A stretch of DNA of 64,000 nucleotides from NCBI GenBank assembly GCA_907164885.2, contig OU015490.1, positions 203,613,661 through 203,677,660 on the forward strand, in the 5' to 3' direction. The stretch is from Dolomedes plantarius (Eukaryota; Arthropoda; Arachnida; Araneae; Dolomedidae). The translations under genes and the position numbers were made by a program. Positions 4,686 to 62,289 of this stretch are shown here, one piece after another (position 1 is the stretch's first letter; every line of letters starts with the position of its first letter). Below the pieces are notes generated by a model, which was not told the DNA's origin, did no database searches, and was given only the letters and a program-made list of their open reading frames with translations.

Positions 4686-25947
<21,262 letters not shown>

Positions 25948-30290: not shown

Positions 30291-33200
30291 TGCGTCGGTC
30301 AGGAGTTGCAAGCGGGTCATCTACTTGGAAGGCAGCTATGCTAACCATTATACCACCGAAGCTCCGTATCAGTCACTCATGGTTTATTCTAAAAGACCAG
30401 AAAGACAGTACGCTTTGATGAAATCGAGGAAAAGGGAAGATACGCTGTATATTATTAGCGAAAAAAAGAACACTTATATAGAAATCCAGTTTACATTCTT
30501 AATAAAGAAAATAATTAACTTCAATCTAAACATTGTCACTGTTGATGCAAATTCTTGTCTTTTTGAACATGCATTAGAAAAAAATGCGAAGAAAAAGGGC
30601 AAAATTATCCTTGCGTCGGCCGGGAGTCGAACCGGGTCAACTACTTCGAAGGCAGCTATGCTAACCGTTATTCCACCGACGCTCCACACTAGTCACTCAA
30701 TGTTTTATCTAAAAGATCAAAAACACAGTCAGCTTTGATGAAATCGGGGAAAAGGGAAGATGCCCTGTATCTTAGCAGCAAAGCAAAGAACACTTTTATA
30801 GAAATCCAGTTTACGTTCTCAATTAAGAAAATAATTAACTTCAACCTAAATATTGTCAATGTTGATAAAAATTCTTGTCTATTTGAACATGCATAAGTAA
30901 AAATATACGACGATAAACGGGAAAACCAAACTTGCATCGACCGGGAGTTGAAACCGGGTCAACTGCTTGGAAGGCAGATATGTTAAACGTTATACAACCA
31001 AACCTTCGTACGAGTCACTCATGGTTTTGTCTAAAATGCCAGAAAGACAGTCAGCTTTGATAAAATCACGGTGAAGGGAAGACACGGTGTATCTTAGCAG
31101 CGATGCACAAAACACTTTTATAGAAATCCAGTTTACGTTCTTAATTAAAAAAACAATTAGCTTCAACCTAAACATTGTCAGTGTTGATGCAAATTCTTGT
31201 TTTTTCGAACATGCATAAGTAAAAAATGCAAATAAAAAGGGCAAAAACATCATTACACAGGCCGGGAGTCGAACCCGGGTCAACTGCTTGTAAGGCAGCT
31301 ATGCTGACAGTCATACCACCAACGCTCCACGTCAGTCACTCATGGTTTTGTTTAAAAGACCAGAAAGACAGTCAGCTTCAATGAAATCGACGTAAAGGAA
31401 AGACGTGGTGGTGTATCTTAGCAGCGAAGCAGAGAACACTTTTATAGAAATCCAGTTTATGCTCTTAATTAAGAAAATAAATAACTTAAACCTAAACATT
31501 TTCAGTATTGATGTCAATTCTTGTCTTTTTCAACATACATCAGTAAAATAATGTTATGAAAAATGCATAAAACATCCATGCGTCGATTGCTAGTCGAAAC
31601 CAGGTGAACTGCTTGGAAGGCAGCTATGCTGACAGTCATACCAACGACGCTCCACGTCAGTCACTCATGGTTTTGTTTAAAAGACTAGAAAGACAGTCAT
31701 CTTCAATGAAATCGAGGTAAAGGGAAGACGCGGTGTATCTTAGCAGCGAAGCAGAGAACACTTTTATAGAAATCCAGTTTATGTATTTAATTAAGAAAAT
31801 AAATAACATAAACCTAAACATTTTCAGTATTAAAGTCAATTCTTGTCTTTTTGAACATACAACAGTAAAATAATGTTATGAAAAATGCATAAAACATCCA
31901 CGCGTCGGCCGAGTCAAACCCGGGTCAAATATTTGGTAGGCAGCTATGCTAACCGTTATGCCACCGATGCTCCACGCCAGCCATTCAATGTTTAGTCTAA
32001 ACGACCAAAAACGTAGTCAGCTTTGGTGAAATCGAGGTAAAGGGAAGATGCGCTGTTTCTTAGTAGCAAAGCAAAAAAAACTTATATAGAACTCCAGTTT
32101 AAATTCTAAATTAAGAAAATAATTAAATTCAACCTAAACATTGTCAGTGTTGATGCAATTTCTTGTCTTTCTCAACTTGCATAATTAAAAAAATCCCAAG
32201 AAAATTGGTAAAAACATCCTTACGTCGGCCGGGAGTATAACCAAGGTCAAATGCTTGGAAGGTAACTTAGCTAATCAATATACCACCCACAAACCATATC
32301 AGTCACTCATGGTTTTGAATAAAAGATCAGAAAGATAGTCAGCTTTCATGAAATCGAAGTAAAGGGAAGACGCAGTGTATCTTTGCAGCGATGCAAAGAA
32401 CACTTTTTAGAAATTCAGATTATGTAAGAAAATGAATAACTTAAACCTAAACATTTCCAGTATTGATGTCAATTCTTGTCTTTTTGAACATTCATAAGTA
32501 AAAGAATGTAAAGAAAAGTGGCAATAAAATCCTTGCGTCGGCGGGGAATCGAACCCGGGTCAACTGCTTGGAAGGCAGCCATGCTAACTGTTATACCACC
32601 GATGCCCCACGTCAGCCACTCAAGCTATTGTCTAAAAGGCCAGAAAAACAGTCAGCTTTGATGAAATCGAGGGAAAGGGAAGATGCGCTGTATCTTAGCA
32701 GCGAAGCAAAATACACATATCTAGAGTTTCAGTTTACGTACTTAATTAAGAAAATAATTTACTACAACCTAAACATTGTCAGTATTGATGTAAATTCTTG
32801 TCTTTTTGAACATGCAGAAGTAAAAAGTACCACCGAAATGCATAAGTACCACCGACGCTCCACACAAGTCACTCAAGGTTTTCTTTATAAGACTAGAAAG
32901 ACAGTCATCTTTGATGAAATCGAGGAATATGGAAGATAATCTGTATCTCAGCAGCGAAGCAAAGAACACTTTTACAGAAATCTAGTTTATATTCTTAATT
33001 AAAACAAAATTTAACGTCAACCTAAACATTGTCAGTGATGATGCAAATTCTTGTCTTTTTGAACATTTATAAGTAAAAAAATGCAATGAAAAATTTCAAA
33101 AATATCCTTGCGTCGAACCCGGGTCAAGTGCTTGGAAGGCAGCTATGCTAACCGTTATACCACCGACGCTCCTCAGCAGTAACTCATGGTTTTGTCTAAA

Positions 33201-34128
33201 GGAGCAGAAAGACAGTCAGCTTTGATGAAATTAAGGTATAGGGAAGATACTCTCTATCTCAGCAGCGAAGTAAAGAACACTTTTATAAAAATCCAGGTTA
33301 TGATCTTAATAAAGAAAATAAATTTCTTAAACCGAAACATTGTCAGTATTGATGTCAATTCTTGTCTTTTTGAACATACATCATTAAAATAATGCAATAA
33401 AAAATGGAAAAAAAGATCCTTCGTTTGCCGGAAGTCGAACGCGGGTCAACAGCTTGGATGGTAGCTATGCTAACCATTATACCACCGACGCTCCACGCAA
33501 GTACCTCAAGGTTTTCTTTATAAGACTACAAATGCAGTCACCTTTGATAAAATCGAGGAATAGGGAAGGTAATCTGTATCTCAGCAGCGAATAAAAGAAC
33601 ACATTTACAGAAATCTAGTTTATGTTCTTAATTAAGACAATAATTAACGTCAACCTCAACAATGTAAGTGATGCTAATTCTTGTCTTTTTGATCATTTAT
33701 AAGTAAAAAATGCGACGAAAAAACTCAAAAATATGCTTGTGTAGGCTCGGAGCCGAACCCGGGTCAACTGCTTCGAAGGCAGTATGCTAACCCTTATACC
33801 ACCGACGTTCCACATCAGTAACTCAAGGTTTTGAATAAAGGAGCAGAAAGACGGTCATCTTTGATGAAATTTAGGTATAGGGAATATACTCTCTATCTGA
33901 GCTGCGAAGCAAAGAACACTTTTACAAAAATCTATTTTACGTTCTTAATTAAGACAATAATTAACGTCAACCTAAACATTGTCAATGTTGATGCAAATTC
34001 TTGTCTTTTTGATCATTTATAAGTAAAAAAATGCAACGAAAAATCTCAAAAATATCCTTGCGTTGGCCGGGAGTCGAACCTGGGTCAACTGCTTGAAAGT
34101 CACTATTCTAACCGTTTTACAATGGACG
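30291..34128 (-). pseudogene. Decayed tRNA-Gly copies, left block
   Basis: Copies (plus coordinates, approximate; anticodon): 30291-30362 TCC with broken T arm; 30612-30682 TCG; 30933-31004 TCC with broken A box; 31254-31325 TAC; 31579-31650 TCC; 31901-31970 ACC; about 32221-32290 TCC, very diverged; 32847-32860, 5' end only; 33109-33169 TCC with an 11-nt deletion across the 3' acceptor and T arm; 33420-33491 TCC; 33735-33806 TCG; 34059-34128 TTC. Stems are interrupted in all, so none is likely functional. Confidence 0.8.
32534..32605 (-). tRNA. tRNA-Gly(UCC), near-intact copy
   Basis: This 72-nt copy keeps the TCC anticodon, the A box and the B box (GGTTCGATTCC). One acceptor pair (A3-C70) and one T-stem pair are mismatched. 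On the minus strand a T-rich stretch (GGATTTTATTGCC) follows the 3' end. Possibly transcribed. Confidence 0.6.
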
Positions 34129-34440
34129 CACCACACCAGTAGCTCAAGTTTTTGCTAAAGGAGCAGAAAGACAGTCATCTTTGATCAAATTGAGGTATAG
34201 GGAAGATACTCTCTTTCTGAGCAGCGAAGCAAAGAACACTTTTATAGGAATCATGGATATGTTCTTAATTAAGAAAATAAATTACTTAAACCTAAACATT
34301 GTCAGTATTGATGTCAATTCTTGTCTTTTTGAACATACATCATTAAAATAATGCGATAAAAAAAGAAAAAACAACCTTGCGTCGGCTGGGAGTCGAGTCT
34401 GGTTCAACTACTTGCAAGGCAACTATGCTAACCGTTATAC

Positions 34441-34644
34441 CAGGAATAAAAAAGCGGTCCATCGCGATCGATCAGTCGATCTTCGACATGATTTTAGTCT
34501 ATCGCGAGCCATAATTTCATAAATATATGGACTATGTTAGTTCTAAACAGCTCATTTTCCATTTAAAAAATGATAACTCGTCGACCGACTAATAAAAAAT
34601 TATAAAAAAGTCGATCGCCAACTAAAAATGGTTGGCCAACCCTG
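34441..34644. mobile_element. 204-bp hAT-type MITE in a tRNA copy (a)
   Basis: The right end read inward is CAGGGTTGGCCAACC; the left end starts CAGGAATAAAAAAGCGG and is diverged. Eight-base flanks CGTTATAC and CGGTATAC are the tRNA sequence duplicated. The insertion point is in the D arm of the tRNA copy. The interior has ATCGATCAGTCGATC and similar GATC-rich repeats. Confidence 0.75.
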
Positions 34645-35099
34645 CGGTATACCACAGACGCTCTTACCAGCCACTCAATGTTTTGTCTAATAGACCAGAA
34701 AAACTGTCAGCTTTGATGACATCGAGGTAAAGGTTAGGCGCGGTGTATCTTAGCAACGAAGCAAAGAACACTTTTATAGAAATCTAGTTTACGTTCGTAT
34801 TTAAGAAAATAATTGACGTCAACCTAGACATTGTAAGTGTTGATACAAATTCTTGTCTTTTTGAACATTTATAAGAAAAAAAATGCGACAAAAAATCTCA
34901 AAAATATCCTTGCGTCGGCCGGGAGTCGAACCCGGGTCAACTACTTGCATGACAGCTATGCTTTATAGAAATCCAGTTTATGTTCTTAATTATGAAAATA
35001 AATTACTTAAACCTAAACATTGTCAGTATTGATGTCAATTCTTGTCTTTTTAAAGATACATCATTAAAATAATGTCATAAAAAATGGAAAAAACAACCT

Positions 35100-35171
35100 T
35101 GCGTCGGCCGGGAGTCGAACCCGGGTCAACTGCTTGGAAGGCAAGTACGCTAATCGTTATACTACCGACGC
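35100..35171 (-). tRNA. tRNA-Gly(UCC), near-intact copy
   Basis: Acceptor and T stems are fully paired, the anticodon is TCC, and a T-run (GTTGTTTTTTCC) follows. The anticodon stem has a G-U and one mismatched closing pair. With the acceptor, T arm and B box intact, this is one of the best copies in the array. Confidence 0.65.
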
Positions 35172-35927
35172 CCCACGTCAGTCCCTCAAGCTATTGTCTA
35201 AAAGGCCAGTTACGTTTAAAAATCCAGTTTACGTTCTTAATTAAGAAAAACAATTATTACAACCTAAACATTGTCAATATTGATGTAAATTCTTATCTTT
35301 TTGAACATGCATAAGCAAAAAGTTCCACCAACATGCATAAGTACCACCGACGCTCTACGCAAGTCACTCAAGGTTTTCTTTATAAATCTAGAAAAACAGT
35401 CGTCTTTGATGAAATCGAGGAATAGGGAAGATAATCTGCATCTCAGCAGCAAAGAAAAAAAAACACTTTTACAGAAATCTAGTTTATGTTCTTAAATAAG
35501 ACGGTAATTAACGTCAACCTAAACATTGTCAGTGATGCAAATTCTTGTCTTTTCGATCATTTATAACTAAAAAAAAAATGCGACGAAAAAAATCAAAAAT
35601 ATCCTTCCGTCGACCGGGAGTCGAACTCGGGTCAACTGCTTGGATGGCAGCCAAGATAACCCTTATACCACCGACACTCCATATCAATAACTCAAGGTTA
35701 TGTCTAAAGGAGCAGAAAGACAGTCATCTTTGATGAGATTGAGGTATAGGGAAGATACTGTCTATCTCAGCATCGAAGCAAAGATATCGTTCATAGAAAT
35801 CCAGGTTATGATCTTAATTAAGAAAATAAATTTCTTAAACCTAAACATTGTCAGTATTGATGTCAATTCTTGTCTTTTTGAGCATACATCATTAAAATAA
35901 TGCGATAAAAAGTGGGAAAAACATCCT

Positions 35928-35999
35928 TGCGTCGGCCGGGAGTCGAACCCGGGTCAACTGCTTGGAAGGCAGATATGCTAATTGATATACCTCCGACGC
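35928..35999 (-). tRNA. tRNA-Gly(UCC), D-loop altered
   Basis: The anticodon (TCC) and T arm are canonical and the acceptor is fully paired, but the D-loop GG of the consensus is replaced (TATCAATTAGC), which should weaken the A box and the D-T loop contact. Probably a pseudogene or a poorly transcribed copy. Confidence 0.5.
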
Positions 36000-36880
36000 T
36001 CCACGCAAGTCACTCAAGGTTTTAAGACCAGGTGACAGTCAGCTTTGATGAAATCGAGGAAAAGGGAACACGCGCTGTAACTTCGTTGCAAAGCAAAGAA
36101 CACTTATATAGAAATCCAGTTTACGTTCTTAATTAAGGAAATAATTTACTACAACCTAAACATTGTCAGTGTTTATGCAATATCTCTTCTTTTTGGACAT
36201 GCATGAGTAATAAAATGCGACGCATGGATGCACAAAAACATCCATGCGTCGGTCGGGAGTCGAGCATGTCTCAACTGCGTGCAAGATAGCTATGCTAACC
36301 GTTATACCACCGACGTTCAATGTTAGTCATTCAAGGTTTTTTTTTATAAGACCAGAAAGACAGTCAGCTTTGATGATATCGAGGAATAGGGAAAATAATC
36401 TGTATCTCAGCTGAGAAGCAAAGGACACTTTTACAGAAATCTAGTTTCTGTTCTTAATTAAGATAATAATTAACGTCAACCTAAACATAGTGATACTAAT
36501 TCTTGTCTTTTTGATCATTTATAAGTAAAAAAATGCGACAAAAAAATCAAAAATATCCTTCCGTCTGCCGGGAGTCGAATCCAGGTGAACTGCTTTGAAG
36601 GAAGTTATGCTAACCCTTATACCACCGACGATCCACATCAGCAACTCAAGGTTTTGGCTAAAGGAGCAGAAAGACAGTCATCTTTGATGAAATTGAGGTT
36701 TACGTATGATACTCTCTATCTCAGCTGCGAAGCAAAGAACACTTTTATAGAAATCCAGGCTATCTTCTAAATTAAGAAAATAAATTACTTAAAAATAAAC
36801 ATTGTCAGTAATGATGTCAATTCTTGTCTTTTTTAACAAACATCATTAAAATAATGCGATAAAAATGGAAAAATCATCCT

Positions 36881-36952
36881 TGTGTCGGCCGGAAGTCGAA
36901 CCCGGGTAAACTGCTTGGAAGGCAGCTATGATAACCGTTATACCACCGACGC
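36881..36952 (-). tRNA. tRNA-Gly(UCC), near-intact copy
   Basis: TCC anticodon and full length. One acceptor mismatch (C2-A71), a G-U in the T stem, and a GTTAGC to GTTATC change in the D arm. On the minus strand GGATGATTTTTCC follows the 3' end, a possible terminator. Confidence 0.55.
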
Positions 36953-38093
36953 TCCACATCAGTATCTCAAGGTTTTGTCTAAAGGAGCAGAAAGACAGTG
37001 AGATTTAATGATATTGAGGTATTGAGGTGAGGTTGAGGTATAGGAAACTCTCTATCTCAGCAAAAAAAGCAAAGAACACTTTTCTAGAAATCCAAGTTAT
37101 GTTCTTAATTAAAAAAATAAAATACTTAAACTTAAACATTGTCAGTATTGATGTGAATTCTTGTCTTTTTGAACATATACCATTAAAATAATGCGATGAA
37201 AAGTGGAAAAATTATCGTTGCGTCGGCCGGGAGTCGAAACCGGGTCAACTGCTTGGAACGCAGCTATGCTAACCGTTATACCACAACGCTCAACTTCAGT
37301 ATTTAAAGGTTTTGTCTAAAAGAGCAGAAAGACAGTCAGCTTTGACGAAATTAAGGTATAGGGAAGAAACTCTCTATCTCAGGAAAAAAGGCAAACAACA
37401 CTTTTATAGAACTCCAGGTTATGTACTTAATTAAGAAAATAAATTACTTAAAACTAAACATTGTCAGTATTGATGTCAATTCTTGTCGGTTTGAACATAC
37501 ACCATTAAAATAATACGACGAAAAACATCAAGAATATCCTTGCGTCGGCAGGGGAGACTGCTTAGAAGGCAGCTATGCTAACCGTTATACCACCGACGCT
37601 CCTCATCAGCAACTCAAGGTTTTGTCTAAAGGAGCAGAAAGACAGTCAGCTTTGATGAAATTGAGGTGTAGGTAGGAAACTCTTTATCTCAGCAGCAAAG
37701 CAAAGAACACTTTTATAGAAATCCAGGTTATGTACATAATTAAGAAAATAAATTACTTAAACCTAAACATTGTCAGTATTAATGTCAATTCTTGTCTTTT
37801 TGAACATACATCCTTAAAATAATGCGATAAAAAGTTGAAAAAACATCCTTGCGTCGGTCGAGAATCGAAACCGGGTCAACTGCTTGAAAGGCAGCTATGC
37901 TAATTGTTATACCTCCGACGGTCCACGCAAGTCACTAAAGATTTTCTTTATTAGACTAGAAAGACAGTCAGCTTTGATGAAATTGAGGAAAAGGGAAGAT
38001 GCGCTGTATCTTCGTTGCAAAGCAAAGAACACTTATATAGAAATCCAGTTTACGTTCTTAATTAAGGAAATAATTTACTACAACCTAAACTTT

Positions 38094-39548
38094 AGCTGCG
38101 TTTACATGGACAACAATAATACCCAGGATTTACCCTCTAAAAGGGAAATCCTTTGAAGTCCGTTTACACGGGCAACATTTTCGTCCTGCTTTTACCCGTC
38201 TTACCGGAAGTAAAGGCCATCACATGATTCTGCGAAAGTGATCCTCATACACCATCATTCCTTGTAAATCACGTTGTGGGTTCGACCCCAGCCGGTGTCG
38301 TACTTTTTCAAATTCACTCTATTGCTATTTTTAGCTTTCCCCTTTAGAACTCCGCATTTATCTCATTAAGAAGTGTATGGTTCTGCCGAGGGCCTTTTAT
38401 TTTTTCAATTGCTGTTCTTTTGACCTCGTGTTCTTAAATTTTAAAAATAACAAAAACAAAAATCATAAAACTTTAAAAATAAAAAAAACTGAAAAACTTA
38501 CAAAATATTTTTTGTATTCTTATATCTGCTTTTCTGTGCCTCTTAACATTATTACTTTTTTGTTTTCCGTGGATCATTAGTCTTATCTAATTTTTCTTCT
38601 AAATTTTCTTAACTTGTAACTCTATATTTTTTCTCTTAAAATTAAATTTTTTGTTTTAATTTAACTTTACTGTTAAATTTGTTTTCCTTTTACCCCCGTT
38701 ATTCTTACCTTAATATATTAATTCATTACTTAAATTTTTAACTACTGAGCACTCCTACCATGATTACATATATCTTGCTTACAGGAGATAAAATCGACAC
38801 GACGACGGTACTCCTCTTCTAAAACACAATTACGTCTGCGTCTATTTATAATTTAAATGCAGCACATGTCAGTCGCTGTTCATAATCATGGAACGTTTAC
38901 GATTTTTTCTGTTGTTTTTAAAAATAAATTCAGAAAATAGATTGGAAAAAAGGAATATAAGAAATAGAAGATTGATGCGGATATTAGACATAATCGTACA
39001 ATCTGTGGCTTCATCGCTAGATTAAAAATAATTAATTTATAAATTTTGATGTTACGTTTAATTATTGATTATACTTATTAAATTTAATAATTTTACCATA
39101 ACACTTTAAATGAAAATGTTATTGAAATTTTATTGAAATGAAATTTTATTTCTTATTTTACGTACCAGATGGCAGTACCAGTCTATTTATAATGTAATTT
39201 GAGATGGGTGTTTTTAAAACTAGATGTGTCAGATCAATAAATAAATGAAATCCTCCGGAAAAAAATAGGCACTTTTCTACAGTTTTCTAGAAAATTATGC
39301 GATTGTTAAGGGGTTCCAGATCCCTCCATCGATCATTTGGCTGCATTTTCATGGATTCGCACATGTTCAAATCCGCCATGTTTGTTTACTACTAGCTTCC
39401 TGCTTCGAAATACATCATGGGTAATTATTGGGTTTTATCCTAGTTCGAAGCAGGGTCGAAATTCCACCCTGCATTTTTCCCTATCGTAGGGAAAAAGCAA
39501 GAAACGACCCTGCGTTGACCCGGGTTTTTGGCACATGTAAACGGCACT
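38094..39548 (+). mobile_element. 1.45-kb TIR element, copy 2, inserted in the tRNA array
   Basis: It is nearly identical to 23101-24542, including ends AGCTGCGTTTACATGG and ATGTAAACGGCACT. The array sequence CCTAAACATTGTCAG is split into CCTAAAC-TTT and ATTGTCTG, consistent with a 3-bp target duplication with one change. Noncoding. Confidence 0.85.
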
Positions 39549-39628
39549 ATTGTCTGTGTTGATGCAAAATCTTATCTTTTCATTATGTATAAGTTAAGAA
39601 ATGCGATGAAAATTCTCAAAAGTATCCT

Positions 39629-39700
39629 TGCGTCGGCCGGGAGTCGAACCCGGGTCAACTCCTTGAAAGGCAGTTATACAAACCGTTGTACCACCAACGC
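39629..39700 (-). tRNA. tRNA-Gly-derived copy with UUC anticodon
   Basis: Acceptor and T arms are fully paired and the B box is intact, but the anticodon reads TTC, the Glu anticodon, by one C-to-T change. One anticodon-stem mismatch. The rest of the molecule is Gly-like, so charging identity is unclear; it may be a decayed gene. Confidence 0.4.
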
Positions 39701-40581
39701 CCCTCGTCAGTGAATCAAGCTATTGTCTAAAAGGCCAGAAAAATAGTCAGCTTTGATGAAATCGAGTTAAAGGGAAGATACGCTGTATCTTAGCAGCGAA
39801 GCAAAGAACATTTATATAGAAATCCAGTTTACGTTCTTAAGTAAGAAAATAATTTACTACAACCTAAACATTGTCAGTGCTGACGTAAATTCTTGTCTTT
39901 TTGAACATGTATAAGGGAAAAAATGAGACGAAAAATGGGAAAATCAACCTTGTGTCAGCCGGGAGTCGAACCCGGATCTGCTGCTTAGAAGGCAGCTATG
40001 CTAACCGTTATACCACCGACACTCCACGGAAGACACTCAAGGTTTTCTTTATAAGACCAGAAAGACAGTCGTCTTTGAGGAAATCGAGGAATAGGGAAGA
40101 AAATCTATATCTCAGCAGCGAAGCAAAGAACACTTTTACAGAAATCTAATTTACGTTCTTAATTAAGACAATGATTAACGTCAACCTAAACATTGTCAGT
40201 GATGCAATTTCTTGTCTTTTTGATCATTTATAAGTAAAAAATGCGACGAAAAATCTCAAAAATATCCTTGCGGCGACCCCAGGTAACCCCTGCTTGGAAG
40301 GCAGCTATGCTATCCGTTTTACCACCGACGCTCCACATCGGTAACTCACGGTTTTGTCTAAAGGAGCAGAAAGACAGTCATATTTGAAGAAATTGAGGTA
40401 TAGGGAAGATACTCTCTATCTCAGCAGCGAAGCAAAGAACAATTTTATAGAAATCCAGATCATGCTCTTAATTAAGAAAATAAATTTCTTAAACCGAAAC
40501 ATTGTCAGTATTGATGTCAATTCTTGTCTTTTTGAACATACATCATTAAAATAATGCGATGAAAAATGGAAAAAACATCAT

Positions 40582-40653
40582 TGCGTCGGCCGGGAGTCGA
40601 ACCCTGGTGAACTGCTTGGAAGGCAGCTATGCTAACCGTTATATCACCGACGC
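40582..40653 (-). tRNA. tRNA-Gly(UCC), near-intact copy
   Basis: Acceptor stem fully paired, TCC anticodon, canonical anticodon stem, B box GGGTTCGACTCC. One T-stem mismatch. GTTTTTTCC follows on the minus strand. It is about 115 bp right-to-left from the pogo-like insertion at 40768. Confidence 0.65.
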
Positions 40654-40767
40654 TCCACGAAACTCTCTCAATGTTTTCTGTATAAGAACAGAAAGACTGT
40701 CAGCTTTGATGAACTCGAAGGAAAGGGACTATGCGCTGTATCTTCGCTGCAAAGCAAAGAACACTTA

Positions 40768-43489
40768 GGGGAACACGGGGTAGAACGAGGTTCGGGGCGG
40801 AATGAAGTTTGACGTTTTTAGGTGTCAAGGAGATGTTGCCAGCCACCGGCAACAAGTACAACTAAACAAACGTATTGCTGCTCAACTTCGACAGTCATTT
40901 TAGTATAGTTTACTCAAGTGTTGGTGTGTGCAATTTTCGTTGTGTGAATTTTTGCTCCTGTATTGTAACTTTTGATGATTTTGTAACCAAGGTAAGGTAT
41001 TATACTTATTTACATCACAACTATAGTTAGTACATTTTCGAATTTCGTTTACTTGTCTTTAGTTTCCTATAGTTAAACATTTGTTTACGTATCTTTCTCG
41101 AGTGACCTTACGTCCCTAACCTAAATCGTTTCCCTGGGGCGGAACGGGTGGGGCAGAATGGGGTAGTATCCCATTCTGCCCCGCAATGTTTTTAACTAAG
41201 AGATCGTTTTTTGTATGCCCCTAATTATTTTCCTTCAAATGGTTCGAGACTATAAGAAAAAACAAATAGGCAATCATGGTCTATTGAGGCATTGAACAAT
41301 GCTGTCGAGGCGGTTATTTCTGGAATATCTGGGTATTTGAAGTCTTAATCATCGAACCAATTTGATGTTCTCCAGTCTACTCTGGAAAGATACGTTAAAA
41401 AAAGAAAGGAAAATCCTGATTACAAGATGGATAAAACGGCTGGAAATTTTAAAAATGTATTTGCAGAAGAGCAGGAACTTGTGCTCGTTAACTACTTAAA
41501 AACTATGGAGGCTAGGTTATTCGGTCTAACAATGAAGGACTTGCGTAGCTGAGCTTATCAGGTGGCAGTAAGAAATGGCATTGGTCATAGATTTATAAAT
41601 GGAATCGCAGGCCAAGATTGGGTCAATCGATTCCTTAAGGGACATCCTACTTTATCTGTTCGCAAAGCCGAGGCAACATCTGGTGCAAGAGCCGCGGGAA
41701 TAAAGTAGCTGTCGATAGTTTTTTTTTCGTTGGTAACGAACTTACTTGACAAGCAAAATCTAACGGCTTCTCAAATATTTAATTGCGATGAAACGGGTAT
41801 GTCAGTGAACCTTAAAAAACAATCAAAGATCATAGCTTGCAGGGGGAAACGACAAGTCAGATCATTAATATCCTCAGAAAGAGGTGAAACTGTAACCTGC
41901 CTTATTTGTATATCGGCAAGCAGAGATTACATGCCCCCCGATGTTCATTTTTCCTCGAAAGTAGAAGTAGAAAGAATTTGAGTTAGGATTGCCATCAGGA
42001 GGTTGGGTTGAGGTGCACAGCACTGGATGGATAGCTGCTGAGTGATTTCTTGTATTGTTTCGAAAATTTGGGGAATTTTCAAAAGCATCAAAAGACTTTC
42101 CGGTTCTTCTTATGTCAGATGGCCACTCAACACATACGAAGAACCTTGAGGTTATAGACTGCGCGAAGGAGAGTGGCGTTTCGTTGCTATGTCTACCACC
42201 ACATTGCTCTCACAGACTTCAGCCACTTGATGTTTCTTTTATGAAGCCTTTAATTCTTCATTACAGCAATGAGCTTCGAAAATGACTACGAAGCAACCCA
42301 GGGAACGTCGTAACTCTCTTTTAAATTTCAACGCTTTTTGGATCATATTGTATCCAAAGCGCAACAATGAAAACTGCTATTAATGGTTTCCAAGCTACAG
42401 GAATATGGCCAACTGATCCATCCATATTCACCGACGCAGATTTTCCCCCAGCAGACACAACTGAAATCGGACTTGGTAGGCCTTCAGGTGAAGAGGTGAT
42501 AACATCCGGAGCTGAACAATTGGAATTGCCTTCGTCTACCACACCAGTTAAAAACACATGCATATCAGGTTGGATGATAAAGCTGGTAAGGTTTCAGCCA
42601 ACTCTAATGATGACACGCCGGTTAAGAAGGTCCGATTTGATGACACTTATTGTGCCACTCCTGGCTGCTCTTGGATGACAATTGACAACAGGGCCTCTTC
42701 ATTCCATGTTTCAGCTGAAATTCTAATCCCTATTCCAAAAGTTAAAGAAAGCACGAAAAGGACGAATAGGAAGAGGGGGAAGACGGCTGTCTTAAAAGTT
42801 TCCCCATACAAAAAATTGTTAGAAGCCGCTATTAAGGAAAAAGAAGAAAAGAACTTTGCTAAAGAAGAAAGAGCAAGGATAAAAATATTTAAGAAAGAGA
42901 ATAAAATTAAGCATGGAAAAAACAAGGGAAAAAGCCTGAAGATTGATAGAAAAAGAATTCTGGGGATTGTTCTGACTGCGAGTGTTTATATTGCGGTGAA
43001 TTTTACTCAGTCAGTTGAAGGCTGTGTCGCTTGTTCCATGTGCAAAAAATGAACACACAATCCCTGTGCGGCAATAGATAGCGAAGATGATGAGGCTGTC
43101 CTAGTGTGTGAATTTTGTGAATAGGCTTAAGAAAAGGACACAATCAATGAAAACCATAACGTTAATTAAACATTTATAATCACTTAAAACTAAATAAATA
43201 TAGAGCAAACTTATTTTTTCTGAATTTCCACTAGCTTATATGTTTTTAAAATTAATTGTCCTTACCACCCCGAGCTGCCCCGTGCCCGGGGTAGAACGGG
43301 GCAAATGACATAATTTACTGAAATTGAAAAAAAATATATTGCTCTTTTATTTTCTTACAATATTATTGTATTTTTGTGATTATTACATTATAATGTATTC
43401 ATAGAAAAATTTTCAACTCTCTTAATTAACCCTTTTGTATTTTTAAAACACATTTTCAACTTCGCACCCCGTTCTACCCCGGGTTCCCC
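40768..43489 (+). mobile_element. 2.7-kb pogo-like transposon inserted in the tRNA array
   Basis: The TIR GGGGAACACGGGGTAGAACG is inverted at the right end (GGGGAACCCGGGGTAGAACG). The array sequence CACTTATATAG is split with TA duplicated (40766-40767 and 43490-43491). It carries a broken DDE transposase gene on the plus strand. TA target and DDE type place it in the pogo/Tigger-like part of the Tc1/mariner superfamily. Confidence 0.88.
41240..43125 (+). pseudogene. Pogo-like DDE transposase with C-terminal PHD-like finger, broken
   Basis: Frames in order: an N-terminal part (about 41270-41710; STLERYVKKRKENP, DWVNRFLKGHPTLSVRKAE) as in psq/CENP-B-type DNA-binding domains; 41730-41981 with FNCDETGMSVN, the first catalytic Asp; 42055-42285 with LLMSDGHSTHT, the second Asp, and CLPPHCSHRLQPLDVSF; 42367-42560 with NGFQATGIWPTDPSIF; and 42558-43125 with a lysine-rich region and CVACSMCKK, then NPCAAIDSEDDEAVLVCEFC across a stop, a PHD-type zinc finger. 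Multiple stops and frameshifts show it is dead. Confidence 0.82.
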
Positions 43490-43690
43490 TATATAGAAAT
43501 ACAGTTTACGTTCTTAATTAAGGAAATTATTTACTACAACCTAAACATTGTCAATGTTGATGCAAAATCTTCTCTTTTTGAACATGCATAAGTTAAAAAA
43601 TGCGACGATAAATGGGAAAAACAACCTTGCGTCGGCCGTTAGTTGAACCCGGGTCAACTGCTTGGAAGGCAGCTATGCTAAACATTATAC

Positions 43691-43894
43691 CAGGTGTGGC
43701 CAACCGGTCGATCGAGATCGATCGGTCTATATTCGACATGATTTTAGTCGATCGCAAGCCATAATTTCATAAATATATGGACTATGTTAGTTCTAAGCGG
43801 CTCATTTTCCATTTAAAAAATGAGAACTAGTCGATCGCCGAATAAAAAATTATAGAAAAGTCGATCGCACACTAAAAATGGTTAGCCAACCCTT
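43691..43894. mobile_element. hAT-type MITE in a tRNA copy (b), followed by a partial duplicate
   Basis: It starts CAGGTGTGGCCAACCGG and ends with TTAGCCAACCCTT. Flanks CATTATAC and CCTTATAC sit at the same tRNA position as copies (a) and (c). A partial second copy follows at about 43915-44013, ending in TTAGCCAGCCTTACG before another ACCACCGACG tRNA remnant. Confidence 0.75.
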
Positions 43895-44174
43895 CCTTAT
43901 ACCACCGACTCTCTTAGCGATTCATTTTCCATTTTAAAAAATGAAAACTAATCGATCGCCGAATAAAAAATTATAGGAATGTCGACGCCAACTACAAATG
44001 ATTAGCCAGCCTTACGTTTTACCACCGACGCTCTTACGCGCCACTTTATGTTTTGTCTAAAAGAACAGAAAAACTGTCAGCTTTTATGAAATCGAGGTAT
44101 ATGTTAGAAGAGGTGTATCTTACCAGCGAAGAAAAGAAAACTTTTATAGAAATCTAGTTTACGTTCTTCATTAA

Positions 44175-45518
44175 CCCTTTGACCTTCGTGATTGCCTCTT
44201 CAGACTTCGAAAATTAACCGGAAATACCTGAAAAACTGGTCTATTAGTTAGTTTTAACCTTTTTTTGATACTAGATGGCAGCACCACACAATCCGATCAA
44301 TAATTTCGGGATATGATACGCTTCTGAAAACCCTGATTTTTCAATGAAATGTTTCAAAATTTTTTTTAACTATAAAATAAATCAATGAAAAAAAAATTCT
44401 ATGTAATTTTGTAGTTTGTAGACTAATCTGTCTATTCTGTATTATTTTTAATTTTTTAGGTTGGAAAGTTGCTTAAAATCAGGCGATATGGCCTTAAATC
44501 AGGCCTAAAATCAGACGATCAGGCCCTGTGGGCTCACTGCACCACATGGCATTGAGCTATCACCGAGAAGAGCACTGAGTCATTGTAATGTTGATGTCGT
44601 TTCGACGCGAGGAGGCGAGCGTTGTGTTTACGTTATCTGCTTTTATTTTATTTCTATTTTTATTTTTATTTCTTTTTTATTTTTATTTCTTTTTTATTTT
44701 TACATGTATCCCAATTTGATGCAGCAGTGATAAATAGCTACATATTGCTCAAAATGCTAACAGTCAAGGAAATAAACAGTGCTAAACAATTCCGTTTAGC
44801 TCTAATTTATTCTCTATACAAAATGGGGAAAGTTACAATTCCGTCTTTGAAAAGAACCCTTTCTTCAAAGCCCCAAGATGCTCCCAGCTATAAAGTGCGT
44901 GTTTCAGAAGAAAAACATTTCACCAATGTGGAACACATGCCGGTGAAAGGAGCACGAAGATAATGCGCGTACTGCAGCACTAAGCAGAAGCCCCATAGGT
45001 TGCGGTACATGTGCAAAACTTGCAACGTAGGATTATGTTTTATGAAAAGTGGTTCTTCATGCTTCGAAAAATACCACGAGAAGAAAAAATAGAGGAATGT
45101 GCTAATGTAAAGATCTCATAGCCAAGATTCCTTTTTTATCCATATACATATATTCAAGAAGCTCATGTAATTTTTTTCAATTTTTTTTCATTTTATTTTT
45201 TTTGGGGGGGTAGAGTAGCAGGCCTCCCTTAGGTGCACCCTGGGTAATGCTAAATCTGCTACGGATATCAGATTCTTGTGTATTTTAATCACAGGCAAAA
45301 TCTTTTACTCTATTGCGCGCTTCACTGCAATTCTCGCCTCACCATGCCTTTCGAAGCTCGTTTGACTCGGTGAGCCCGCTTCGAGCACACCCATAAAATT
45401 AAAACCGTTACTGCAATCTTCACAAAATTATACTTGCGTACCCTTCTAGGCCTAAACAGACTGTCTATAAAATTTTTTGTTAAAATTCCAAATTTAAAGA
45501 GTAGCGTGCCGGAAAGGG
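44175..45518 (+). mobile_element. PiggyBac-like element, internally deleted, in the tRNA array
   Basis: TTAA occurs at both boundaries (44171-44174, 45519-45522) and restores the array sequence TTCATTAAGAAAATAA when removed. Ends are CCCTTTGACC and (inverted) CCCTTTCCGGCACG. Terminal CCCTTT after TTAA is typical of piggyBac. At 1344 bp it is shorter than a full element and keeps only the end of the transposase gene. Confidence 0.85.
44700..45100 (+). pseudogene. PiggyBac-like transposase, C-terminal remnant
   Basis: The frame up to 44963 reads VSQFDAAVINSYILLK, which matches the end of the piggyBac catalytic fold, and then an HMPVKGARR segment before a stop. Past the stop the sequence continues CAYCSTKQKPHRLRYMCKTC and GLCF, a cysteine-rich zinc-binding tail as in piggyBac transposases. 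The catalytic part is missing. Confidence 0.8.
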
Positions 45519-46188
45519 TTAAGAAAATAATTAACGTCAACCTAAACATTGTCTGTTTTGAAGGAAATTTTTGTCTTTTTGAACATGCATAAAAAAAATT
45601 CGAACCGTTATACCACCGACGTCCCACATCAGTGCCTCAAGATTTGGTCTAAAAAACAAAAAAACAGTCAGCTTTCATGAAATCGAGGTAAAGGGAAGAC
45701 GCGGTGTATCTTAGCAGCGAAGCAAAGAACACATTTATAGAAATCGAGTTTATGGCCTTAATTAAGAAAATAAATATCTTAAACCCAAACGTTTTCAGTA
45801 TTGATGTCAAATCTTATCGTTTTCAACATACATCCGTAACATAATCCGATGAAAAATGGAAAAAACATCCTTGCGTCTGCCAGGACTCGATCCTGAGTCA
45901 AGAGCTTCGGAGGCAGTTATGCTAACCGTTATTCCACCGACCACATTAGTCACTCAAGCTTTTGTCTAAAAGAGAAGAAAGACAGTCAGCTTTGATGAAA
46001 TCGTGGTATAGGGAAAATACTCTGCATCTCAGCTGCGAAGCAAAGGACACTTTTATAGAAATCCACTTTACGTTCTTAATAAGCAAAATCATTAACTTCA
46101 ACCTAAACATTGTCAGTCTTGATGCCAGATCTAGTCTTTTTGGACATGTTAAGTAAAAATATCTGACGAAAAAGGGGAAAAACAACCT

Positions 46189-46260
46189 TGCATCGGCCGG
46201 GAGTCGAACTCGGGTCAACTGCTAGGAAGGCAGATATGGAAACCGTTATACCACCAACGC
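46189..46260 (-). tRNA. tRNA-Gly(UCC), partly decayed
   Basis: Full length with TCC anticodon and an acceptor stem that pairs with two G-U pairs. The D arm is altered (GGTTTCCATATC), position 37 is T instead of A, and one T-stem pair is lost. Confidence 0.4.
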
Positions 46261-46813
46261 TCCACATCAGTCGCTCAAGGTTTTGTCTAAAAGAGCAGAA
46301 AGACAGTCAGCTTTCATGAAATCGTGGTATAGGTAAGATACTCAGTATCTCAGCAGGGAAGCAAAGAACACTTTTATAGAAATCCAGATTATGTTCTTAA
46401 TTAAGAAAATAAATAACTTAAAACTAAACATTTTCAGTACTGATGTCAATTCATCTCTTTTTGAACATACATCAGTAACATAATCCGATGAAAAATGGAA
46501 AAAAGTCCTTGCGTCAGCCTGCATCAACTGCTTGAAAGGAAGCTACGTTAACCGTTATGCCACTTACGCTCCACATGAGAAACTAAAGATTTTTCTAAAG
46601 GAGCAGAAAGACAGTCAGCTTTGTTGAAATCGAGGAAAAGGGAAGTTGCGCTGTATCTAAGCATCGAAGCAAAGAACACTTATATGGAAATCCAGTTTAC
46701 GTTCTTAATAAAGAAAATAATTTACTTCAACCTAAACATTGTCAATGTTGATGAAAATTGTTGCCTTACATGCATAAGTAAAAAAATACGACGATAAATG
46801 GGAAAATAAACCT

Positions 46814-46885
46814 TGCGACGGCCGGGAGTTGAACCCGGGTCAACTGCTTGGAAGGCATCTATGCTAACCGTTATACCACCGACGC
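46814..46885 (-). tRNA. tRNA-Gly(UCC), near-intact copy
   Basis: TCC anticodon and canonical A box. One acceptor mismatch (T4-T69), one anticodon-stem mismatch, and TTCGACT changed to TTCAACT in the T loop, which alters the B box. Expression uncertain. Confidence 0.5.
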
Positions 46886-47867
46886 CCCACATCAGTCAAT
46901 CAAGGCATTGTCTAAATGGCCAGAAAAACAGTCAGTTTTGATGAAATCGAAGTATAGAGAAGATACTCAGTATGTCAACAGCGAAGCGAAGAACACTTTT
47001 ATAGAAATCCGGGTTATGTTCTTAATTAAGAAAATAAATAACTTAAACCTAAACATTGTCAGTATTGATGTCAATTCTTGTCTTTAGGAACTTATATCGG
47101 TAAAATAATGCGATAAAAAATGGAAAAAGCATCCTTGCGTAGGCCCGGAGTCGAACCCGGGGAATTGATTGGGAGGCAGCTATGCTAACCGTTATACCAC
47201 CGACTCTCCACGTAAGCCACGCAAGGTATTCTTTATAAGACCAGAAAGACAGTCAGCTTTGATAAAATAGAAGAAAAGGGAAGATGAGCTGTATCTTCGC
47301 AGCGAAGCAAACAACACTTATATAGAAATTCAGTTTACGTTCTTTATTAAGAAAATAATTAACATAATTTTAAACATTGTCAGTGTTGATGTAAATTCTT
47401 GTCTTTTTTAACAGGCATAAGTAAAAAATGCGAAGAAAAATCTCAAAAATGGAAAAAATCTAAAAAATGGAAAAAGCATCCTTGCGTCGGCCGGGAGTGG
47501 AACCCGGGTCTACTCCTTGGAAGATAGCTATCCTAACCGTCATACCGCCGACATTCCACACCAGTCGCTCAAGGTTTTGTCTAAAAGACCAGAAAGACAG
47601 TCAGCTTTCATAAAATCGAAGAAAAGGGAAGATGCGCTGTATCTTCGCAGAGAAGCAAATAACACTTTTATAGAAATCACGTTTACGTTCTTATTTAAGG
47701 AAATAATTTACTACAACCTAAACATTGTCAGTGTTGATGCAAATTCTTGTCTTTTTGACCATGCATAAGTAAAAAAATGCAACGAAAAATGGGAAAAACA
47801 ACCCTGCGTCCGCTGGGAGTCGATTGCGGGTGAATTGCTTTCAAGTCACCTATGCTAACCGTTGTAC

Positions 47868-48053
47868 CAGGTGTGGCCAATCGGTCAATCCTCAAGATGA
47901 TTTTAGAGGATCGCGAGCGATAATTTCATAAATATATGGACAATGTTAGTGCTAAGCGGTTAATTTTCCATTTAAAATATTGAGAACTAGTCGATCGCCG
48001 AATAAAAAATTATAGAAATGTCGACGCCAACTAAAAATGATTAGCCAGCCCTA
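47868..48053. mobile_element. hAT-type MITE in a tRNA copy (c)
   Basis: It starts CAGGTGTGGCCAATCGG and ends TTAGCCAGCCCTA. Flanks CGTTGTAC and CGTTATAC match an 8-bp duplication at the same tRNA D-arm site. The unit downstream is closely related to that after copy (b). Confidence 0.75.
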
Positions 48054-49982
48054 CGTTATACCACCGACGCTCTTACGTGCCACTCAATGTTTCGTGTAAA
48101 AGACCAGAAAAACTGTCAGCTTTTATGAAATCGAGGTATAGGTTAGAAGAGGTGTATCTTACCAGCGAAGCAAAGAACACTTTTATAGAAATCTAGTTTA
48201 CGTTTTTCATTAAGAAAATAATAAACGTCAACCTAAAGATTGTCAGTTTTGAAGCAAATTCTTGTCTTTTTGAACATGCATAAGTAAAACAATTCGCTAA
48301 AAAAGCTGTGCTAACCGTTATACCACCGACGTCCCACATCAGTGCCTCAAGATTTGGTCTAAAAACCAGAAAAACAGTCAGCTTTCATGAAATCGGGGTA
48401 AAGGGAATACGCGGTGTATCTTAGCAGGGAAGCAAAGAAAACTTTTATAGAAATCCAGTTTACGTTCTTTATTAAGAAAATAATTAACATAAACCTAAAC
48501 ATTGTCAGTGTTGATGCAAATTCTTGTCTTGAAATTTTAAAAATATCTTTCAGTCGGCCGGGAGTCAAACCCGGGTGAACTGCTTGAAAGGCAGCTAGGC
48601 TAACCGTTTTACCCCCGAAGCTCCACATCAGTCGTTAAAGGTTTTGTCTAAAAGACCAGAAAGACAGTCAGTTTTGATAAAATCCAGGTAAATGGAAGAC
48701 ACGGTGTATCTTAGAAGCGAAGCAAAGAACAATTTTATAGAAATCCAGTTTATGTTCTTAATTAAGAAAATAAATAACTTAAACCTAAACATTGTCAGCA
48801 TTGATGTCAAATCTTGTCTTTTTCAACATACATCAGTAACATAATGCGATGAAAAATGGTAAAAACGTCCATGCGACAGCCGGGAGTCGAACCCGGGTCA
48901 ACTGCTTGGAAGGTAGCTAAGGTAACCGTTATACCACCGACCCTCTACATAAGTTGCTCAAGGTTTTGAAGACCACAAATACAGTCAGCTTTGATGAAAT
49001 CGAGATAAAAGGAAGAATTCATTCCTTTTGTTGTCTAATAAAAAATTGAGATAAATAAATACCCGGATAACGCTGGGTAAACAGCCAGTCTAAGATAAAT
49101 GACAGATAAAAAAAGGCACTGCGTCGGCCGGGAGTCAAACCCGGGTCAACTGCTTGGAAGGCAGCTATGCTTACCGTTATACCACCAAAGCTCCACGCAA
49201 GGTTTTCTTTATAAGACCAGAAAGACAGTCAGCTTTGATAAAATCTAGGAAAAGGGAAGATGCGCTATATCTTCGCATCGAAGCAAAGAACACATATATA
49301 GAAATCCTGTTTACATCCTTAATTAAGGAAATATTGTATTACAACCTAAACATTGTCAGTGTTGATGCAAATTCTTGTCTTTTTGAACATGCATAAGTAA
49401 AAAATGCGTATAAAAAAGGCAAAAACATCCTTGCTTCCGCCGGGAGTCGAACACAGGCCAACTGTTTGGAAGACAGCTATGCTAACCGTTATACCACCGA
49501 CGCTCCGCGTAAGTCACTCAAGGTTTTTTTATAAGACCAGGAAGACAGTCAGCAATGATGAAATAAGGAAAATGGAAGATTCGTTGTACCTTAGAATCAA
49601 AGCAAAGAACACTTATATAGAAATCCAGTTTACGTTCTTATTTAAGAAAATAATTTACTACAACCTAAACAATGTCAGTATTGATGCAAATTCTTGTCTT
49701 TTTGAACATGCATAAGTAAAAAAATGCGACGAAAAATGGCAAAAGCTTCCTTGCGTTGGCCGGGAGTCGAAACCGGGTCAACTGTTTAGAAGGCTGTTAT
49801 GCTAACCGGTTTACCACCGACACTCCGCATAAGTCACTCAAGTATTTGTCTAAAAGACCAGAAAGATAGTCAGCTTTGATGAAATCAAGGTAATGGGAAG
49901 ATGTGCTGTAAATTAGCAGCGAAGCAAAGAACACTTTTATAGAAATCCAGTTTACGTTCTTAATTAAGAAAATAACTAACTT

Positions 49983-50180
49983 GAACGCTCATTGATTCCT
50001 TGGGTGGCCGAAATTTATAAAATGAATGCTGTTGAAAAGTGCAGAAAAGTTCAGGCTATCTAATAATACTATTTTTATTTGATTTTCAGCATTTATGTAG
50101 CTGTAAATATAGACAAATTTGCTCCATAGTTTAACATTTAACTGAGCTATTCCAATAGGGTTAGTATAAAACAGACTTAA
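49983..50180. mobile_element. Remnant of the TTAA element family
   Basis: The left part (GAAATTTATAAAATGAATGC, TTCAGGCTATCTAATAAT) matches the interior of the 2.0-kb element near 28090-28140. It then jumps to the right TIR (GCTCCATAGTTTAACATT, CCAATAGGGTTAGTA). This is an internal deletion derivative that abuts the end of the tRNA array. Confidence 0.65.
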
Positions 50181-61083: not shown

Positions 61084-62289
61084 TTAAAATTTAAATCTAA
61101 CAACTGGTTTTGAAATTCGCCCAGATTTAGTTACTGTATTTTCCTGTCGGGGAATGTGGTATTTCTCAGTATCTCTAAGTGCTTTAGATAATACATAAGC
61201 AGGCTTTACACGATCAATGTTTACAGTTTGAAGTTTACCCTTGATACAAATAGTCAGTGTCTTTGGTTTTCTTGACATGACAGCATATGGTCCTTCATAT
61301 GGTGGTGCCAACGGAGGCTTCACATGGTCTGTCCGCAGGAACACATGTGTACAGTCCTTGAGATCCTTGAAGACAAAGACTGGTGGCTTGGCATGTCTTC
61401 CTGTCGTATTTAGTATTAAGTTGGTCATATGGTAACTCAGTCTCTGCAACATCTCAGCTGGTTCGTCCTTCACCGGGTTACTCTGAAAAAACTCACCTGG
61501 AAGTCTTAACAGACCACCGAACACTAATTGTGCTGGGGAAGCCTGTAGATCCTTCCTTACAGTTGATTTGATAGCCAGAAACACCAGAGGTAGAGCATCA
61601 ACCCAATGTACTGGATCTACTGCCATCTGAGATGATTTAAGCCCTCGATGGAATCGTTCCACCAATCCATTGCTCTGTGGGTGGTATGCCTCAGTCCTGC
61701 TGCGCCGGATACCCAAGTACGTTGACAGCCTATTAAAAAGTTGGGACTCAAAGTTTGATCCGCGGTCTGTCGTTATCACCTCGGGAATACCATAACGAGC
61801 TATCCAAGTAGATAAGAAAGCATCCGCTATGGTTTCTGCCCGTTGGTCTGAAAGTGGCACAGCTTCAAGCCATCGCGTCTGGCGATCCACACAAGTCAGC
61901 AGATACCGGTTGCCTTTGGATGGAGGTAGGGGCCCAACTATATCAATGTGGATATGAGAAAACCTATTTGTTGCGACGAAGGTTCCCAGAGGCGCCTTCT
62001 TGTGTCTGGTCACCTTGACTCGCTGACACTGGTTGCATTGTCTACACCATTCTGCACAATCTTTTCTCATGCCCGTCCACACGAATCGTTGTTGGATGAG
62101 TCTCCAAGTTCCTTTTAAACCAGGATGTGAAAGTTTGTGGTTGGCTTCAAAAATCCTCCGTCTCCATACTCTAGGAACGAATGGTCTAACTAGGTCGTGA
62201 GACACATCACAATACAATTTTCTTTCACAGGCAGGCAAAGCAATTAACTTTAACTCAAGACCTCTTACCTCCTTTGAACGTAAAATTTG
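61084..62289 (-). CDS. Ty3/Gypsy-like pol: integrase end, 5'-truncated
   Basis: About 400 codons remain open on the minus strand down to the stop at 61084-61086. The N-terminal HHCC zinc finger (NHKLSHPGLKGTW, CRQCNQCQRVK) precedes the integrase core: HIDIVGPLPP (first Asp), ITTDRGSNFES (second Asp) and HPQSNGLVERFHRGLK (Glu). After the core there is a GPY-like segment (PPYEGPYAVMSRKPKTL) and a basic tail. The frame upstream is cut by a stop at about 62290 and RT/RNase H are absent. Integrase inserts cDNA into chromosomes; this copy lacks the rest of pol so cannot move on its own. Confidence 0.88.
   Translation of the reverse strand, partial: QILRSKEVRGLELKLIALPACERKLYCDVSHDLVRPFVPRVWRRRIFEANHKLSHPGLKGTWRLIQQRFVWTGMRKDCAEWCRQCNQCQRVKVTRHKKAPLGTFVATNRFSHIHIDIVGPLPPSKGNRYLLTCVDRQTRWLEAVPLSDQRAETIADAFLSTWIARYGIPEVITTDRGSNFESQLFNRLSTYLGIRRSRTEAYHPQSNGLVERFHRGLKSSQMAVDPVHWVDALPLVFLAIKSTVRKDLQASPAQLVFGGLLRLPGEFFQSNPVKDEPAEMLQRLSYHMTNLILNTTGRHAKPPVFVFKDLKDCTHVFLRTDHVKPPLAPPYEGPYAVMSRKPKTLTICIKGKLQTVNIDRVKPAYVLSKALRDTEKYHIPRQENTVTKSGRISKPVVRFKF

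Follow-up and report, generated by a model that had tools for sequence, protein, structure and literature searches.

A tandem array of decayed tRNA-Gly(UCC) genes in the genome of the spider Dolomedes plantarius

A 64,000-nucleotide stretch of the Dolomedes plantarius genome (hereafter the window: contig OU015490.1, or C1, positions 203613661-203677660 of a 2.78-Gb genome in 390 contigs) carries on its minus strand a tandem array of about 44 units, each of which joins a 72-nt segment derived from tRNA-Gly(UCC) to a 250-bp spacer. Judged from sequence, the array is most likely inert tRNA-pseudogene DNA, since no copy passes the sequence criteria for a working tRNA gene.

Layout of the array and state of its tRNA copies

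The array and its interruptions are as follows:

30291..49986, minus strand: tandem array of about 44 decayed units of about 320 bp, each a 72-nt tRNA-Gly(UCC)-derived segment plus 250-bp spacer (ARAGORN, Tandem Repeats Finder [TRF], Rfam, profile)
38097..39538, no strand assigned: 1.4-kb non-array stretch that breaks the array (gap between spacer matches)
40766..43491, no strand assigned: 2.7-kb DNA transposon that breaks the array, with 29-nt terminal inverted repeats (90%) (sequence)
within 42046-42282, plus strand: DDE_1 (PF03184) fragment inside that transposon (domain match)
44175..45518, no strand assigned: 1.3-kb non-array stretch that breaks the array (gap between spacer matches)
48622..48870, minus strand: example of the 250-bp spacer (spacer profile)

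The array was delimited by four methods: i) ARAGORN reports 15 tRNA-like genes in the window, every one of them minus-strand and within 30612-49503; ii) Rfam RF00005 has 17 matches at or above the gathering threshold, scoring 30.0-59.0 bits, none of them outside the array; iii) a nucleotide profile built from six copies has 44 minus-strand matches at E<1 within 30291-49823, spaced mostly 309-325 bp apart; and iv) TRF finds periods of 320-322 bp across most of the region, along with some shorter ones. The unit consensus is 322 bp long and consists of a perfect 72-nt tRNA-Gly(UCC) followed by 250 bp of spacer, the latter made up of a short trailer, a T-run, and an AT-rich remainder; the final spacer piece ends at 49986. 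Rfam families other than tRNA have only sub-gathering matches within the array, probably by chance. A first-pass annotation, made from the sequence alone, had described about 45 same-strand units of about 320 bp over 19.7 kb; the units are as described and number about 44, and the overall span is right, although it includes the three longer non-array stretches listed above. The tRNA part of some units also holds related inserts of roughly 190-210 bp on the minus strand (34440-34660, 43690-44040, and 47860-48070), two of them, by eye, in the 43690-44040 stretch; the inserts adjoin the A-box motif GGTATA.

Among the best preserved or highest scoring copies, all recognized by both Rfam and ARAGORN, are:

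46814..46885, minus strand: least decayed 72-column copy, UCC, 3 substitutions, 18/20 pairs (48.0 bits)
40582..40653, minus strand: equally least decayed 72-column copy, UCC, 3 substitutions, 19/20 pairs, A box off consensus (49.8 bits)
49120..49191, minus strand: tRNA-Gly(UCC)-like, 4 substitutions, 19/20 pairs, B box off consensus (50.3 bits)
36881..36952, minus strand: tRNA-Gly(UCC)-like, 4 substitutions (46.3 bits)
35100..35171, minus strand: tRNA-Gly(UCC)-like, 5 substitutions (50.0 bits)
32534..32605, minus strand: tRNA-Gly(UCC)-like, 5 substitutions, A and B boxes both present (46.6 bits)
39951..40022, minus strand: Gly body with anticodon UCU, top Rfam score of the array (59.0 bits)
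39629..39700, minus strand: Gly body with anticodon UUC (53.6 bits)

We scored 42 profile matches, 28 of which cover at least 69 of the 72 positions (near-full copies) and the other 14 fewer, and counted a copy as intact if it had the UCC anticodon, both boxes, at least 19 of 20 cloverleaf pairs, and a T-run of at least 4 within 25 nt downstream; box patterns and pair numbering follow general knowledge of tRNA genes. No near-full copy (0/28) combines all of these features, and none retains all 20 cloverleaf pairs. They differ from the functional sequence by 3 to 12 substitutions (median 7), bearing out the earlier description of a tandem repeat whose tRNA-Gly(UCC) genes have decayed to many different degrees; UCC survives in 15, the A box in 16, the B box in 10, and both boxes together in just 6. 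The ARAGORN labels Arg, Val, SeC (selenocysteine), and Glu on several copies reflect a Gly body with an altered anticodon. The five copies previously singled out as near-intact, starting at 32534, 35100, 36881, 40582, and 46814, are indeed Gly(UCC)-like, but carry 5, 5, 4, 3, and 3 substitutions respectively.

The consensus tRNA of the array is nonetheless identical at 72 of 72 positions to the intact tRNA-Gly(UCC) that recurs in this genome. Exact copies of that 72-mer number 92 genome-wide, all of them outside the array, compared with 0 for a reversed-pattern control. For 26 full-length copies, picked because they span the 72 columns without indels, 83.3% of cloverleaf cells are paired compared with 82.3% when partners are shuffled, and 40 of 500 shuffles score as high; with pairing barely above the shuffled level, we read folding as not maintained. 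Mean pairwise identity is likewise nearly the same in the tRNA part (0.762) and the spacer (0.751), almost no sign of selection, although two edge rows (u44031 and u30362) were misaligned in this raw comparison and were dropped from later unit analyses. The copies thus show both marks of tRNA pseudogenes, descent from a functional tRNA and folding without constraint, and the suggestion that most had lost selection is upheld by the absence of intact and exact copies and by near-shuffled pairing. The array resembles satellite DNA in its head-to-tail arrangement; satellites form long arrays or occupy many loci, usually in heterochromatin, and the extent seen here is one locus of about 20 kb. It resembles a tandem tRNA cluster in having repeated same-strand units with a recognizable tRNA gene in each, but because those genes are not intact it is better named a tRNA-pseudogene array.

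Origin and decay of the array

The spacer appears to be private to this locus. Searched against the genome, the spacer consensus has 47 matches, all within C1:203644028-203663646 (7 of 7 first-look candidates scored). The spacer profile, a more sensitive probe than the consensus, does align at columns 143-193 to 3 of 5 neighboring tRNA flanks on C1, at an equal offset upstream of the tRNA; the matching flanks belong to two genes and one decayed copy (13.5, 12.0, and 10.4 bits), and none of 5000 first-order shuffles reached 10 bits. The nearest exact tRNA-Gly(UCC) gene, at C1:203690481, is about 27 kb past the array. Six exact copies from scattered sites on C1, C4, C6, and C8 share the same 72 letters amid largely dissimilar flanks, indicating that the gene itself stays fixed as the sequence around it changes; by blastn, three of the six share pieces of more than 100 bp with tRNA-Gly clusters on C1, C5, or C7. 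The C1 and C7 clusters also have in common a 1,250-bp segment, 97% identical (L010:848-2097 and L015:6005-7254), which is probably a transposable element.

For 31 complete units the tree is star-like, with terminal branches making up 89% of its length, and identity between units is the same whether they are adjacent or far apart (about 0.80 at lag 1 as at lag 30), which gives no sign of higher-order repeat structure. Such a tree, without a neighbor effect, fits a single expansion after which homogenization ceased.

We conclude that the array very probably is a locus-private derivative of a functional tRNA-Gly(UCC) gene which expanded locally in tandem, ceased to be homogenized, and decayed into pseudogenes. 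The parent would most likely have been a member of the small dispersed tRNA-Gly(UCC) cluster on the same chromosome, from which a 320-bp stretch comprising the whole gene, its T-run terminator, and 5′ flank would have been copied in head-to-tail order, with unequal crossing-over or replication slippage as the presumed mechanism; a burst may then have spread the array while the units were still homogeneous, after which exchange between units would have stopped, leaving them to mutate independently while the array took insertions, one of them an identified transposon.

Several observations weigh against this reading. Divergence of the tRNA part is somewhat below that of base-matched spacer columns (0.123 compared with 0.155, P 0.0056), a difference seen mainly in the A box/D arm (0.083 compared with 0.138, P 0.02), where divergence is lowest among the tRNA regions compared, and one that could hint weakly at constraint, past or current; a T-run of at least 4 follows 27 of the 28 near-full copies within 25 nt, so that RNA polymerase III (Pol III) termination sites persist; no spacer match was found at 2 of the 5 C1 flanks, nor at any of 7 flanks from C5, C7, and C10; and the search that found no spacer match outside this locus in the 2.78-Gb genome skips very common words. 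We nonetheless do not claim selection on the tRNA part, whose base-matched P values of 0.005-0.006 are undercut by contiguous spacer windows: these reach the tRNA ratio in 9 of 178 cases, and the A box/D arm ratio in 23 of 231. For the B box, divergence does not fall short of the expected level (P 0.28), and for the anticodon it is 0.194 with 0.138 expected (P 0.18 for a value that high). Divided by the divergence of base-matched spacer, tRNA divergence gives a ratio of 0.80 in the array (P 0.005), and 0.64 (P 0.22) and 0.46 (P 0.007) in arrays at 39.93 and 61.67 Mb on C10, described below.

Intact arrays elsewhere in the genome, and the demand of silk

We surveyed five isotypes genome-wide: Gly UCC, Gly GCC, Ala AGC, Lys UUU, and Thr (63 of 273,088 candidates were scored in the RF00005 search, and 40 of 236 in the Gly(GCC) search). 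C10 has three related arrays, younger than that in the window. One, at 39.928-39.954 Mb, holds 45 tRNA-Gly copies in a 597-bp unit; mean identity among 44 complete units is 0.975, with UCC in 43 and an exact gene in 23. A second array at 61.672-61.701 Mb has at least 32 copies in a 609-bp unit, with exact copies running upstream to 61.649 Mb; 29 of its units have a mean identity of 0.9345, with UCC in 26 and an exact gene in 4. In both, identity is flat with distance over 12 lags. The 609-bp array already has altered anticodons, UUC, UUU, and ACC (piece L018: 5017-5088, 5626-5697, and 8585-8656). The third array, at 130.039-130.057 Mb, has 22 exact tRNA-Gly(UCC) copies, and units in a 2.5-kb piece of it are 86.6-88.6% like the 597- and 609-bp consensus units. 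Outside the tRNA, the 597- and 609-bp spacers have nothing significant in common with the 322-bp unit. A 4.36-kb unit on C5, which carries an exact tRNA-Gly(UCC) gene, is repeated at 99.6-99.9% identity.

Other isotypes are arrayed as well: i) Gly(GCC) at C8:59.20-59.21 Mb; ii) Ala(AGC), where among 100 of the 104 exact copies genome-wide at least 54 lie in one dense array at C12:52.943-52.973 Mb (L054), with spacings of about 274 and 570 bp, and at least 22 in one on C1; iii) Lys(UUU), with 55 of 93 exact copies in one C9 array having a 612-bp unit; and iv) tRNA-Thr, in a tandem array at C9:3534530-3575749 (L031 and L043) where, in L031, a 1,483-bp unit holds alternating UGU and AGU genes. 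We take the window's array to be the old end of a general process in this spider, with at least five arrayed families (Gly UCC, Gly GCC, Ala AGC, Lys UUU, and Thr UGU/AGU), and given the intact Gly, Ala, Lys, and Thr arrays elsewhere it looks like the fossil of an ordinary local process. By unit identity the Gly(UCC) arrays fall into a series of 97.5%, 93.5%, and about 79%; for a single tRNA gene, the array and its intact cousins span graded stages between young and dead, along which the rate of homogenization and the point at which selection is lost become measurable.

What set such amplification going is a separate matter. The first-pass annotation had supposed a spider host, heavy GGA usage in silk, and hence a silk-driven amplification of tRNA-Gly(UCC). 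The host is borne out by 29 Spidroin_N matches in the genome, all over the cut-off, compared with none in 14 control genomes, and so is the codon usage: in the eight best of the 29 Spidroin_N loci, which look ampullate-type from their repeats, 500 codons each past the N-terminal domain yield 1494 glycine codons in 4000, with GGA the commonest (740) and GCT the second commonest codon (577). Selection for translation of GGA-rich spidroins could accordingly be imagined to have amplified tRNA-Gly(UCC), leaving the array as an outdated product, and the Gly(UCC), Gly(GCC), and Ala(AGC) genes are all arrayed. There are also precedents: the available text of PMC12308677, which cites the tandem tRNA-Ala genes of Bombyx, proposes a role for tandemly arranged tRNA genes in the production of repetitive secreted proteins, and that of PMC6627382 mentions a gland-specific tRNA in Nephila. 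We nevertheless regard this account as doubtful. Lysine makes up just 6 of the 4000 silk codons (AAA 4, AAG 2), yet exact Lys(UUU) copies number 93, next to 92 for Gly(UCC) and 104 for Ala(AGC), and Thr genes are arrayed too; across the five tRNA families and eight spidroin loci, amplification is not confined to isotypes that silk demands. Silk demand as the specific cause is thus not sustained. The Lys and Thr arrays weigh against a silk-specific cause, but since five families only were covered a contribution is still conceivable, and silk may have played a part when tRNA-Gly and tRNA-Ala genes were first amplified; with no copy passing as an intact gene, the array is unlikely to serve silk today. 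The arrays make the old idea of silk-driven tRNA amplification testable, and the first control, lysine, counters its simple version.

A broader idea, which we think unlikely, is that tRNA genes are recurrent seeds of satellites, such that Pol III units promote their own tandem duplication in a cycle of birth, expansion, and death affecting several isotypes, with dead arrays perhaps acting as A-box/TFIIIC sites. Retention of the array for a role other than tRNA, its A and B boxes serving as TFIIIC sites in a chromatin barrier or heterochromatin anchor, is very unlikely: the low divergence of the A box/D arm and the persistent T-runs would suit such a role, but both boxes survive in only 6 of the 28 near-full copies, the B box is no less diverged than expected, and some contiguous spacer windows match the A box/D arm ratio. 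We consider it quite implausible that the decayed copies are a source of expressed, anticodon-shifted tRNAs which misread codons; 13 of the 28 near-full copies do have a non-UCC anticodon, and the highest Rfam score in the array (59.0 bits) belongs to the copy with UCU, but the divergence of the anticodon is no more than decay yields, and cloverleaf pairing is not maintained.

Derivation from a short interspersed element (SINE), or from an unrelated satellite with a chance tRNA-like head, is barely credible, for despite a satellite-like unit with a tRNA-related head, and despite the SINE-derived satellites of squamates (known from the available text of PMC10702118), no dispersed SINE copies of the unit were found by a search that skips very common words, which placed every spacer match at this locus, and the head of the consensus unit agrees letter for letter with the intact tRNA that recurs in the host; the unrelated SINE or satellite that the first-pass annotation had named as its own undoing did not materialize.

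Relation to known systems and other features of the window

Tandem tRNA clusters are already known in plants and insects, as are tRNA-bearing tandem repeats in newt and frog; the array in the window is a tandem tRNA gene array in a dead state. In the SYY cluster of Arabidopsis, tandem Ser/Tyr/Tyr tRNA genes are reported to be functional and reactivated in root tips, and are linked to translation of repetitive proteins, according to the available text of PMC12308677; there too whole tRNA genes are tandemly repeated in one nuclear locus, but the spider array has no intact copy and an animal host. The tandem tRNA-Ala repeats of the Bombyx mori silk gland (Underwood et al. 1988, as cited in the available text of PMC12308677) are again tandem tRNA genes in a silk-producing arthropod, but are described as silk-gland-specific Ala genes, unlike the decayed Gly(UCC) array here. 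The newt PolIII/TAN (Hirt) tandem repeat of about 360 nt and the Xenopus OAX repeat (PMC10702118) likewise have a satellite-sized tandem unit with tRNA-like or tRNA-derived sequence; in the available text these units are not tied to a working host tRNA gene, whereas the spider consensus is a full match to the host tRNA-Gly(UCC). The tRNA-Cys cluster of Arabidopsis, with short tRNA-bearing tandem units of near-equal length (0.4 kb), comprises only four genes, in a plant host, in the available text of PMC10701932.

A literature search, covering titles and abstract openings and few subscription journals, found no tRNA satellites or decayed tRNA arrays in spiders. Large tRNA numbers as such are unsurprising in a spider, given the 3,084 tRNAs and 57,824 putative tRNA pseudogenes listed for the Uloborus genome in the available text of PMC9912274.

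Elsewhere in the window, about 3 copies of a 127-bp tandem repeat (97%) lie at 22380-22753. A 369-amino acid open frame at 16072-17181 (plus strand) contains a Tc3-type helix-turn-helix (PF01498) and DDE_3 (PF13358), and is a Tc1/mariner-like transposase; a 401-amino acid open frame at 61084-62289 (minus strand) contains Integrase_H2C2 and rve domains, and is a retroelement integrase region.

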